From Nautilus pompilius (taxonomy: Eukaryota > Mollusca > Cephalopoda > Nautilida > Nautilidae), in NCBI GenBank assembly GCA_018389105.1, contig JACATO010001005.1:389001-453000 (forward strand): a DNA stretch of 64,000 nt, in the 5' to 3' direction. The position numbers and the translations under genes are program-made. Under the pieces are notes generated by a model, which saw nothing but the letters and a program-made list of their open reading frames with translations, made no database searches and had not been told where the DNA came from. Shown here one piece after another: positions 8,308-43,798 of this stretch (the first letter of the stretch is position 1; each line of letters opens with the position of its first letter).

Positions 8308-11300
8308 TCATTGATACTGGTAACTAGAGCTGTAGTTTCCTGATGGTGGCGGGGGAGGGTTGGTAGTAGTTTTATTTGGTGGTGGTGGTGGCGGAGGATG
8401 CTGACTCTGAGGCTGATTTTGCATCCACTGGCTGTACATGTAAGCCATGTTTTGCAAGTTCTGAAGACTCTGCTGGTTGCCACTTTGGCTAGACTGACTC
8501 TGCACCCCACCTGTATAACCATTTACTTGATAGCTAGATGACTGTTGCACCTTTTGGGCCCCATACTGACTGGTCTGTAAAGGTCTACTATTCTGTTGCT
8601 GCTGACTGTATCCTCCTGTAGAAGGCCCCTGGCTGTAATTTGTTTTGGGCCCCATATTTCCATAACTCCCTGACTTTGCATTAGACTGACTTCCTCCATA
8701 GCTGTTTATCTGCCCCTGGTTATATCCCCCAGACCCCTGAAACCTACTAGTATTATTAGTCTTATTAGATGCCCCAAAACCACCCCTTAATCCTTGACTG
8801 TACCCACCCGATGAAGCTGAACCACTCCCATACCCAGAACCCCTTCGATCAGATCCACGATTACTTAGCCCCCCTCTAGAACTTCCGCCACGATCACGGC
8901 TCCCTGAACCATAGCGACCACCAGTGCTGCTGTCACGGCTCCCTGAATGTCGATATCTGTTTCTACCTATTAAGGTGAAAAAAAATAATTCTTTTAGTTC
9001 TTAGAACATTGACAAGGTACAAAATCATGTTTAAAATTTCCCTTTTACAGGCTCTGTGCATGCAGTCTTGTCAGTCCAGTTGTGCACTATAGCTTAAGTT
9101 AGTAATTTTGATCTACCTCACAGCATGCTAAATAATGCACCAGTTATCAGTTACTAGTTCTATAAAGGCAAGAATCTGAGAATTCAACTAAGGGAAAAGG
9201 ACCAATCACTACCAAGTCTAAAATAATCTTATTTACTGGCAATACCACTTCAGAAACAAACGCCTACCTTTTCCAAATATTCCTCTGGCATTTTCTGACA
9301 GCTGCAGCAGCTTTGGATTTATCACCTGATTGGCCTCTTTTAAGACAGAAATAAGATCATTGGCCTGCTTCATATTACCAGGAGTAAAAAACGTGTATGC
9401 AGTACCAGTGTTATTGCTACGAGCTGTTCGCCCGATTCTGTGCACATAGTCTTCTGATGTTGCAGGATAGTCAAAATTTATGACAAATTTGATGTCTTCC
9501 ACATCTGTAAGTGTCAGAGTGTCAAAGCACACCCATAACAGAAGGGAAAGGGAAATGTATTAGCAAACATTAACAAAAATCAGTTAGAACTGGAAGAAAA
9601 ACTAATGAAATACAAGACAAATTCACAACCAACAAGAATGCACACTCCCACAGCTTATTTAAGGGGGGTAAAAAAACTAGAAACCCAAGAAAAGAATTAG
9701 GGCATTGTTAGGGCTAAGAGCTTACCCTGGGTAAGAAAAAAGATGTATGCACTTACCTTAAGCCTGTGCCTACCTGCAACCCCAGGGTGACCACTGCCCC
9801 AACTAGCTAATTTCCACCAAACAATGGGTGCATCCTGGCAAAGGGGAGCATGCATCCAGCTGGTTTGGACCGACACTTTGCTATATAGGACTGCTTTTTA
9901 AAATTAATTTTAAAAAAACCATGATGGATCCAATGCTGTTGTCAATCATGGAAGGTAGTATGACAAATTTTTATGCGCTGAGATGTTACCACTTGTTGAG
10001 CTCCATATGTTTAGCAGTCAACTTGCATGAAGCAAAGTCCCATGCGCCTTTATACTGGCAGGTTTCCGACATGACTCTGTGATGACAGGGGAGAGGCAGG
10101 TGGGCAGCTAGGTAGATATCCTTAGGAATGCTATGCACATCCAGCCTCTTCTTTGGTGGTGATGAGGTGGAAGCCTTGACTACTTACGGTACTGTCTTCC
10201 CCACAATGACCTGTGTTGCTAATTTAATTAGGAAACACCACTACTGATTAAACTGGTCTTCTAAGGGTGTGCACTAAATGATTATTGAAAGTGGAGTTAG
10301 ATAAAAAAAAGACTAAAGTTAGACATTTCAAAATCATAAAATATTATCAAGGCTCTTAAAAATAAAAGGATTTTAATCTTGTTTTTCTTTAATTTAAATT
10401 AAAAGTTAGGTTAACCTAAATCTAACGAGATAACTCCATATGCTTGCTTACCTTCATCTAGCAAAATTAAACCAAAGGTTTTGGAGCAAGTTATGGTGTT
10501 GCTGCACCTATTTTTTATGGTTAACTTATCAAAACTACTATTAATTGAGATTTTGTTCAAAATAACTGAACAAATTACTTAAATAAACAAAATAAAGTCG
10601 ACCTTCATGAAATTAAAAAAGAAAATAAAATGACCACTTGGTTTTTGACAATTCCCTCTGTAAAAATAAAAGAATACATCAAAACAGCAAAACAATAAAC
10701 ATTAACAATCAAGAATCAGACAATAACATGTGAAAACAACCGAAGGCATAACAGAGCCCCAAACAGTTTTACACAGGCGGAAAATCTGACTGATGAGTAG
10801 ACCTGACTGCACTGTCTGGAAGAACATTCAGCAGGAAGGAACCAAGTGGCCATGTAGAAGGCTGCCGCTGACTAGCTCAAACTACATTTGTTTTAATTTT
10901 AAAAAAATTAAATAAACCAGTTTCATAAAATGGCAACTTAAATTTACTTTTCACTTTCCAACATTTTTTTTTTTTTACTTTTTTTTTTTACTGACAATTA
11001 AAATATGGGTGCAAAATATGTGGTGGTACACTGTACTGGGGGTACATTTCAAATGTTCCCAGCAGTACAATCATGTGTACCCATAGTTTACAACAGTGTT
11101 GGCAATGAGTGTGCCTCAGTGCTATAGTTCCAGGCAAAAAAAAAAAAATGATGATGCATAATCGCTTCAAGAATATTTAACATGGTGTCTTCAAAACCAT
11201 GATAATATGAAAAACAAAACAGTTAATTGTAGAATCAAGATTTGAGTTTGCCATGAAAAGCCCAGTCCATTTCTAAGGGTGTTTCCTCACAAAATAGCAA

Positions 11301-43100: not shown

Positions 43101-43798
43101 TGTAAAAAAAGAATAGGCATTGTTACTCATAGTGCTAACAGCTTCTGATTGTGTGCTAATAGCCACTGGATAGAACCCTTTATATGCTGCAATACTGCCT
43201 TCCTCAATGTTATGTAATTTCAAAAACAATGGGATCAAAGAGACGGGGAGAGAGAGAGGGAGAGAATCACATTTAGGGTTGACAAACATTTCAATTATGC
43301 TGCAGTCACAGAAGCATATTAAATTTCTCTACAGTAAAAACAATGGGATCAAACAGACGGGGGGAGAGAGAGAGAGAGAATCACATCATTCGCGCTAGTC
43401 TGGACAGCCATCCATCCTGGGGTTCGTTAGATCAGATCCACTGGTGCTGCAAACGGCCCTTATGGCGGGTCTCCGTGCCCATTCAGGGGGTTGGCTCGAA
43501 GAGGAGAACAGTAACTACACAACACGAAAAGGATAAAAAATAAAAATTCTCGAACATCTAAATCCAGTCGTGGCTGCTTACCGTGCTTCTGGCTCGCACT
43601 GCCGGGTGTTCTCGGTAGAAGTCCTTCTCAAACCCTGCCAACTTGCTGAGGTCCCATACTGGTCTCCGGAGCCTGTGCCCCAGCTGGGTGTGTCGGTGGT
43701 CCGGCCGTCGTCGGAACTCGTCAAACTCCCTGTCCCTGGTGCTGACGAGGCGGGCAGCCCGACCACCGGCTGCTGGGTTCAACCTTCCTCGCCCGACG
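28191..43798 (-). CDS. DDX5/DDX17-type DEAD-box RNA helicase, copy B (first coding exon not determined)
   Basis: Paralogue of the helicase to its right-hand 3' side. Minus-strand exons: 43798-43582, 40944-40848, 40055-39922, 38897-38832, 37903-37762, 37622-37462, 36679-36507, 36350-36240, 34841-34780, 34372-34313, 30649-30413 and 28321-28191 (stop TGA). They encode about 529 residues after a split first codon, so a short upstream exon ending GG is expected. Motifs are intact: [38 protein letters not shown] and HRIGRTAR. Exons 3 to 12 have exactly the copy A lengths; the second differs (217 versus 205 nt). The C-terminal tail after the helicase core is only about 43 residues, RG/DRG-rich, ending FAWGGMKS, and lacks the long Q/S/P-rich tail of copy A. 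In the stretch around [12 protein letters not shown], 35 of 41 residues match copy A. All splice sites are intact, so a pseudogene is unlikely. Confidence 0.93.
28322..30412 (-). other. Last intron of copy B (2.1 kb)
   Basis: A/T-rich sequence before the short terminal exon. I found no alternative long-tail exon like that of copy A, but a weakly conserved low-complexity exon would be hard to see by eye. Confidence 0.5.
31360..31625 (+). repeat. tRNA-derived SINE-like repeat
   Basis: The left part has a B-box-like gagttcaattcctga. The right part ends ttgagattggtgtacaacag. The same order recurs near 42.4-42.7 kb and, in part, near 49.6-49.9 kb. It lies in the copy B intron between exons 34313 and 30649. 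Confidence 0.6.
32805..33660 (+). mobile_element. Decayed Tc1-like transposase (copy B intron)
   Basis: Plus-strand frames show Tc1-family blocks in the expected order. At about 33208-33260 is MFTDE, a stop, then [13 protein letters not shown], corresponding to the FTDESRFNLYLRDGR-type block with the first-or-second catalytic Asp. At about 33320 is [14 protein letters not shown]. At about 33450-33550 is [16 protein letters not shown], corresponding to the NPIEHLWDILGR block that carries the last catalytic Glu, followed by LLEKWRTIQ. Frames change and stops intervene, so it is dead. Terminal repeats were not located; the left boundary is a guess. It is antisense to the host gene. Confidence 0.75.
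35815..36055. repeat. Dispersed repeat, member 1
   Basis: Shares order and sequence with 41885-42120: taaccctc, then ataccatcccagcctag / ataccacacctcagcctag, then gcaaatttgttgtta-type sequence, then acctgcaccgact / acctgtgctgagt. Lies in a copy B intron. Family unknown. Confidence 0.6.
36841..36915. repeat. GA/CA-rich simple repeat
   Basis: Degenerate gagacagacaga sequence in a copy B intron; another (GACA)n run is at 37998-38018. Confidence 0.6.
41885..42120. repeat. Dispersed repeat, member 2
   Basis: Second copy of the repeat at 35815-36055, in the large intron before copy B exon 40944. Fragments resembling its start (aaccctctgcataccacc) also occur near 39160 and 59580. Confidence 0.6.
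42408..42720 (+). repeat. tRNA-derived SINE-like repeat
   Basis: Contains a B-box-like aagtttgattcccagt, a C/T-rich middle with cctcccacatctag, a ggcgcaggataggtgg segment, and the end ttgagactggtgtacgacag. It aligns by eye with 31360-31625. Confidence 0.6.

Follow-up and report, generated by a model that had tools for sequence, protein, structure and literature searches.

An old tandem pair of DDX5/17-type RNA helicase genes in Nautilus pompilius, separate from the vertebrate DDX5/DDX17 duplication

Introduction

Vertebrates retain two paralogous RNA helicases, DDX5 (p68) and DDX17 (p72), of a DEAD-box subfamily that is represented by a single gene, Dbp2, in yeast and by Rm62 (p62/p68) in Drosophila. 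In the cephalopod Nautilus pompilius, two genes of the same subfamily, with the same core, lie one behind the other on the minus strand of contig JACATO010001005.1 (assembly GCA_018389105.1), within the 64,000-nucleotide (nt) stretch from position 389,001 to 453,000 that we analyzed and call the window; all coordinates below are window positions. Do these genes, named A (the upstream copy) and B (the downstream copy), correspond to DDX5 and DDX17, or do they descend from a duplication of their own, and have both been kept as working helicases? Our analysis identifies the pair as ordinary in kind: old tandem paralogues of a well-known helicase, independent of DDX5/DDX17. Among the literature matches listed, no account of this pair was found.

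Results

Gene A spans 28.2 to ~44.7 kb and gene B 8.3 to 23.1 kb. With exact exons fixed on GT/AG borders, which are present in both genes, ten internal coding exons (97, 134, 66, 142, 161, 173, 111, 62, 60 and 237 nt) were equal in size, order and phase, as an earlier note on this DNA had reported. The same note had named exon 2 (217 nt in A versus 205 nt in B) and the last coding exon (132 nt, 28190-28321, versus 659 nt, 8308-8966) as the only ones differing in size, and the mapping agrees. Stop-to-stop frames compared with one another paired A with B exon by exon at the protein level (best E 1e-54, far above chance), and once joined, the two proteins share 73.4% of 485 aligned residues.

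The description of both genes as complete holds for B, whose frame is open from ATG to stop over 719 amino acids and which starts with a first coding exon of its own (23069-23118). The frame of A is open from exon 2 to the stop; as exon 2 has no in-frame ATG, an upstream exon is required. The best phase-2 ATG exon upstream of A, at 44628-44674, lies beyond the span that the earlier note had assigned to the pair, and scores 9.1 with a donor matrix, compared with 4.0 for the next. Since this matrix was built from the 23 donors of the pair itself, including that of the first exon of B, the exon is a candidate only, and A is probably complete. The features of both genes are given below; exons come from exon mapping, motifs from motif patterns and the Asp425 position from alignment to Dbp2.

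Gene A
44628..44674, minus, candidate first coding exon, MYGRSVLLVSSNLLL, phase 2, donor AAG/GTTTGT, top donor-matrix score
43582..43798, minus, exon 2, 217 nt, GT/AG borders
40848..40944, minus, exon, 97 nt
39922..40055, minus, exon, 134 nt, Q motif and motif I
38832..38897, minus, exon, 66 nt
37762..37903, minus, exon, 142 nt, PTRELA
37462..37622, minus, exon, 161 nt, DEAD
36507..36679, minus, exon, 173 nt, SAT
36240..36350, minus, exon, 111 nt
34780..34841, minus, exon, 62 nt
34313..34372, minus, exon, 60 nt, motif V, ends in the Asp codon of SRGL/D
30650..34312, minus, intron, 3663 nt, at the Dbp2 Asp425 position, donor GTTTGTATTT common to B, retention leads to a stop 44 nt in
30413..30649, minus, exon, 237 nt, motif VI
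28190..28321, minus, last coding exon, 132 nt, short Arg/Gly-rich tail and stop
27695..27747, minus, poly(A)-signal region, gapped alignment to that of B (local score, shuffle test)

Gene B
23069..23118, minus, first coding exon, within a GC-rich stretch, donor score 11.7 (its own donor is in the matrix)
19138..19342, minus, exon 2, 205 nt
18582..18678, minus, exon, 97 nt
18207..18340, minus, exon, 134 nt
17747..17812, minus, exon, 66 nt
17232..17373, minus, exon, 142 nt
16759..16919, minus, exon, 161 nt
14244..14416, minus, exon, 173 nt
13406..13516, minus, exon, 111 nt
12260..12321, minus, exon, 62 nt
12108..12167, minus, exon, 60 nt, ends in SRGL/D
9505..12107, minus, intron, 2603 nt, at the Dbp2 Asp425 position, retention leads to a stop 11 nt in
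9268..9504, minus, exon, 237 nt
8308..8966, minus, last coding exon, 659 nt, 219-residue Ser/Gly/Gln/Asn/Tyr/Pro-rich tail
8112..8174, minus, poly(A)-signal region, gapped alignment to that of A (local score, shuffle test)

All ten DEAD-box patterns (Q, I, Ia, GG, Ib, II, III, IV, V and VI), which were taken from general knowledge of the family, were found in both A and B. The nearest solved relatives of B were DDX17, Dbp2 and DDX5, ahead of DDX46, DDX42 and DDX3 (phmmer, best 60 of 115 matches), with identities of 75.8% to DDX17 and 59.9% to Dbp2. For A, identities obtained by alignment only were 68.1% to DDX17, 69.9% to DDX5, 56.6% to Dbp2 and 41.1% to DDX46. The N-terminal aromatics of the FEKNFY motif are kept in both proteins, as FEKNFY in B and FEKDFY (Asn to Asp) in A.

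To these two proteins we added sequences from solved structures, namely DDX17, a 253-residue part of DDX5 and Dbp2, with or without DDX46, and built trees. A and B formed a clade with support of 97/96 or 99/98, and DDX5 and DDX17 another with 89/89 or 90/88, while each of the four cross-pairings, A with DDX5, B with DDX17, A with DDX17 and B with DDX5, was rejected by the approximately unbiased (AU) test (p-AU 7e-6 to 4e-5). The column patterns run the same way: among the 256 columns covered by all four animal rows, 17 set A=B against DDX5=DDX17, and in none does each copy match a different one of the two vertebrate genes. Dbp2 carries the vertebrate letter in 8 of those 17 columns, the A/B letter in 5 and neither in 4. 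With A and B grouped and their pairings with DDX5 and DDX17 rejected, the duplication is independent of the vertebrate one. The earlier note had proposed a whole-gene tandem duplication and had named a tree placing A with DDX5 and B with DDX17 as the outcome that would speak against independence; that arrangement is among those rejected. As no invertebrate homologues are among the rows, the tests set the pair apart from the vertebrate event without dating it within the invertebrates.

Over 414 colinear codons the nonsynonymous divergence (dN) between the copies is 0.13 and the synonymous divergence (dS) 1.43 (NG86) or 1.50 (YN00), giving a dN/dS of ~0.09; at fourfold sites, 75 of 139 differ. 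Averaged over A and B, purifying selection on the cores is strong. Intron lengths differ widely between A and B, and a search for conserved intron content ended in its rejection: 22 of the 24 exon flanks were reached by at least 12 of 200 shuffles, with only 2 beating all 200; among the introns, 2 of 11 outscored all 30 shuffles, in both cases by a single point. The clearest intronic similarity lies upstream of the 161-nt exon. A dS of ~1.4 together with introns that can hardly be aligned makes the duplication old.

We compared the exon series with four other DEAD-box genes of the same genome (L025 to L028; splice sites unmapped), using tblastn against B. In every one of them, three or more of the ten pair boundaries were crossed by unbroken matches. 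L025 had three such crossings (B codons 162, 400 and 420), L026 also three (162, 231 and 285), L027 eight and L028 at least four, which rules out the ten-exon series as a trait of DEAD-box genes at large. Some matches ended near pair boundaries, at B codons 162 (L027), 184 (L025, L026), 231 (L025) and 285 (L025, L026), so single intron positions are possibly older than the pair. A protein search of the whole assembly (727.6 Mb, 2558 contigs), in which 82 of 114 candidates were scored and counts are therefore lower bounds, confined strong multi-exon matches of DDX5/17 grade to the window. Identities elsewhere were 23-74%, the highest only over a short motif-rich stretch; among the candidates scored, A and B are the sole genes of DDX5/17 level in the genome. 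A scan of viral contigs for relatives yielded four pattern-matching stretches, none of them confirmed.

The two copies have diverged unequally. Measured against DDX17, 48 changes are unique to A and 14 to B (chi-square 18.6). Among A, B, DDX17 and Dbp2, A is the only one to depart from an otherwise uniform column 22 times and B 7 times (p = 0.008). The C-tail of B comprises 219 residues, rich in Ser, Gly, Gln, Asn, Tyr and Pro, with three RGG, versus 43 residues in A, with 10 Lys/Arg, three RG and no RGG. The N-terminus of A is also different, lacking the Gly run that B has before the RRPVWDL block. No hidden long tail emerged for A, there being no Gly/Tyr/Gln/Ser-rich frame in its last intron or downstream to 24.9 kb. 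The statement that both copies were kept intact thus stands for the core and its splice sites in both genes; it does not extend to A as a whole, with its other N-terminus, shorter tail, faster rate and uncertain first exon.

Downstream of the coding regions, AATAAA lies at 27733 in A and at 8153 in B, within a gapped alignment of 63 columns with 16 identical bases (TAATAAATATTTAACA). Its local score of 46 was reached by none of 300 dinucleotide shuffles (maximum 34), for a match that had been noticed by eye beforehand. The poly(A)-signal region thus looks retained in both copies, though the introns have diverged almost completely.

At the gene starts, the first exon of B falls in a GC-rich stretch at 22001-24000 (GC 0.537), and the candidate exon of A, with part of EXOSC5, in another at 44001-46000 (GC 0.527). 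A common promoter or alternative first exon was considered for these regions, with a B exon MYESSQSSN (22715-22743) and an A exon MYGRSV..., both of phase 2 near AACCACGTGAC, and was set aside: the local match is weak, and 24 of 1000 shuffles reach it. The best match between the two GC-rich islands is a simple repeat and was rejected as promoter evidence. EXOSC5 (RRP46) itself occupies a plus-strand frame at 45587-46252, apparently a single exon, head-to-head with A and perhaps with a GC-rich promoter stretch in common. Between the genes, a 131-bp tandem repeat of ~6.7 copies (periods 275 and 406 are also listed) fills 23996-24892, just upstream of the GC-rich start of B; no further gene was noticed between A and B, where no gene finder was run.

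In both genes the intron after the 60-nt exon splits, in phase 1, the codon aligned to Asp425 of Dbp2. This may be where the intron of yeast DBP2 lies, a conserved intron of DBP2/p68 genes with a role in autoregulation. Passages of Kilchert et al. (PMC4695336), in which no codon is given, describe the position of the dbp2 intron as conserved from S. cerevisiae to higher eukaryotes, including DDX5, and the intron as poorly spliced and possibly autoregulated. The donors of this intron agree between A and B at 11 of 12 bases, and its flank scores highest among 11 same-intron pairs and 110 cross pairs. Retention would bring an in-frame stop 44 nt into the intron in A and 11 nt in B. In the other DEAD-box genes with matches covering the Asp425 position (L025, L027 and L028), there is no break at it.

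Elsewhere in the window, a plus-strand frame at 4485-5177, beyond the end of B, gave two separate EIF3L matches, which may belong to two exons taken together as a single frame. In human, EIF3L is found with DDX17 on chromosome 22q13, a location consistent with an old linkage. At 61060-61719, on the minus strand, a 219-amino-acid open frame, partly proline-rich, had no Pfam match at E 0.01 and is possibly an exon of a signalling adaptor. The assembly also contains 117 COX1-like matches on many contigs. In-frame TGA, which codes for Trp in mitochondria, occurs in nearly all of them, and TAA or TAG in many; given these stops on so many contigs, nuclear copies abound. Many of the matches on different contigs have two TAA at profile positions 281/282-346, seemingly mitochondrial insertions copied further within the genome, and some of the frames are flanked by NADH-dehydrogenase- or COX2-like frames (recognized by eye), a gene order known from molluscs.

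Discussion

We consider it likely that a whole DDX5/17-type gene was duplicated and left two constrained genes. The event would have taken place long ago, most simply in tandem, in the lineage of this animal after its split from vertebrates. How widely the duplication is shared is a question of its date. That it is common to a large clade, e.g. all molluscs, with nothing particular to this animal, is compatible with an independent origin, and we see the chances as evenly balanced: the high dS and the near absence of intron similarity imply great age, and a mussel DDX5 entry, given with 538 amino acids and 1,740 nt in a passage of PMC4793324, has about the expected length of A.

A would instead be an older lineage, one that branched off ahead of the split between B and vertebrate DDX5/17 and was later lost in vertebrates, if its divergence, the greatest among the four animal rows (branch 0.34-0.35 versus 0.06-0.14), were taken as a sign of age. 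We regard this as very improbable. The tree with A outside B+DDX5+DDX17 is rejected, though less strongly than the cross-pairings (p-AU 0.009; 0.012 for B outside A+DDX5+DDX17), and of the 442 core columns 16 set A=B against DDX17=Dbp2, compared with 5 for B=DDX17 against A=Dbp2 and 3 for A=DDX17 against B=Dbp2. Long-branch pull would, moreover, shift A outward, away from B.

The fast evolution, short tail and uncertain first exon of A could also be those of a decaying or silent copy, which we judge highly improbable: core splice sites, motifs and frame have been kept over a dS of ~1.4 at a dN/dS of ~0.09, and by simple arithmetic the ratio stays near 0.2 even when all replacement changes are assigned to A. 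That A and B are orthologues of DDX5 and DDX17, through a single duplication that preceded the bilaterian split, has in its favor that both vertebrates and this animal have two such genes, nothing else here, and is extremely improbable given the rejected pairings and the complete absence of sorting columns, a result that A/B gene conversion could mimic in theory.

If the pair arose by its own duplication, as we prefer, it differs from DDX5/DDX17 not only in that separate origin but also in its tandem arrangement and in the short tail of A. At 43 residues this tail is close to that of yeast Dbp2 (residues 497-546, ~50 residues), and that of B is about four times longer than the yeast one. Passages of a study of Dbp2 truncations (PMC10193013) report that RNA binding depends on the N- and C-tails, and annealing on the C-tail. 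With a tail of only ~50 residues in Dbp2 itself, the short tail of A need not mean an inactive enzyme, and both copies would make active RNA helicases. B, with its long tail, would keep the general DDX5/17 role; A, with its short Arg-rich tail and other N-terminus, would still unwind and anneal RNA, without tail-dependent partner binding or condensation. A more likely lacks whatever the extra tail length of B does, and that it has specialized away from tail-dependent functions strikes us as about an even chance.

The intron at the Asp425 position invites a further proposal. Its retention would truncate either protein before motif VI and could hold both in balance. Feedback control of both copies through this intron is the weakest step of the mechanism, and we put it forward as doubtful. 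Still more speculative, and in our view rather unlikely, is a cross-regulated pair, in which both mRNAs would keep the ancient retained-intron switch at SRGL/Asp and the same poly(A)-site element, the level of either helicase would tune the splicing of both, and the short-tailed A would act as a buffer, unwinding RNA without the condensate and partner functions of the B tail.

Several points weigh against parts of this account. The first exon of A (44628-44674) is an unproven candidate, and the models of both genes derive from genomic sequence and not from transcripts. The rows added to the trees are vertebrate and yeast, and the duplication could predate the species, the class or the phylum. 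Some of the intron positions of A and B may be common to other DEAD-box genes. The intron at the Asp425 position is, as a whole, not conserved between A and B (its best local match is equalled or exceeded by 7 of 30 shuffles); the donor signal amounts to ~12 bases, and both the donor and the poly(A) matches were tested after being seen. The feedback idea, finally, is taken over from the yeast and human literature.

The value of the pair lies in the short tail of one copy, plus the retained intron and poly(A) features. Being independent, the pair repeats the DDX5/DDX17 duplication in nature. One of its copies carries no more than a short disordered tail, and comparing both pairs can help tell the roles of the helicase core from those of the tails. 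With an intron that is possibly the one conserved from yeast to human, and whose donor is kept in both copies, cross-regulation between paralogues becomes directly testable.

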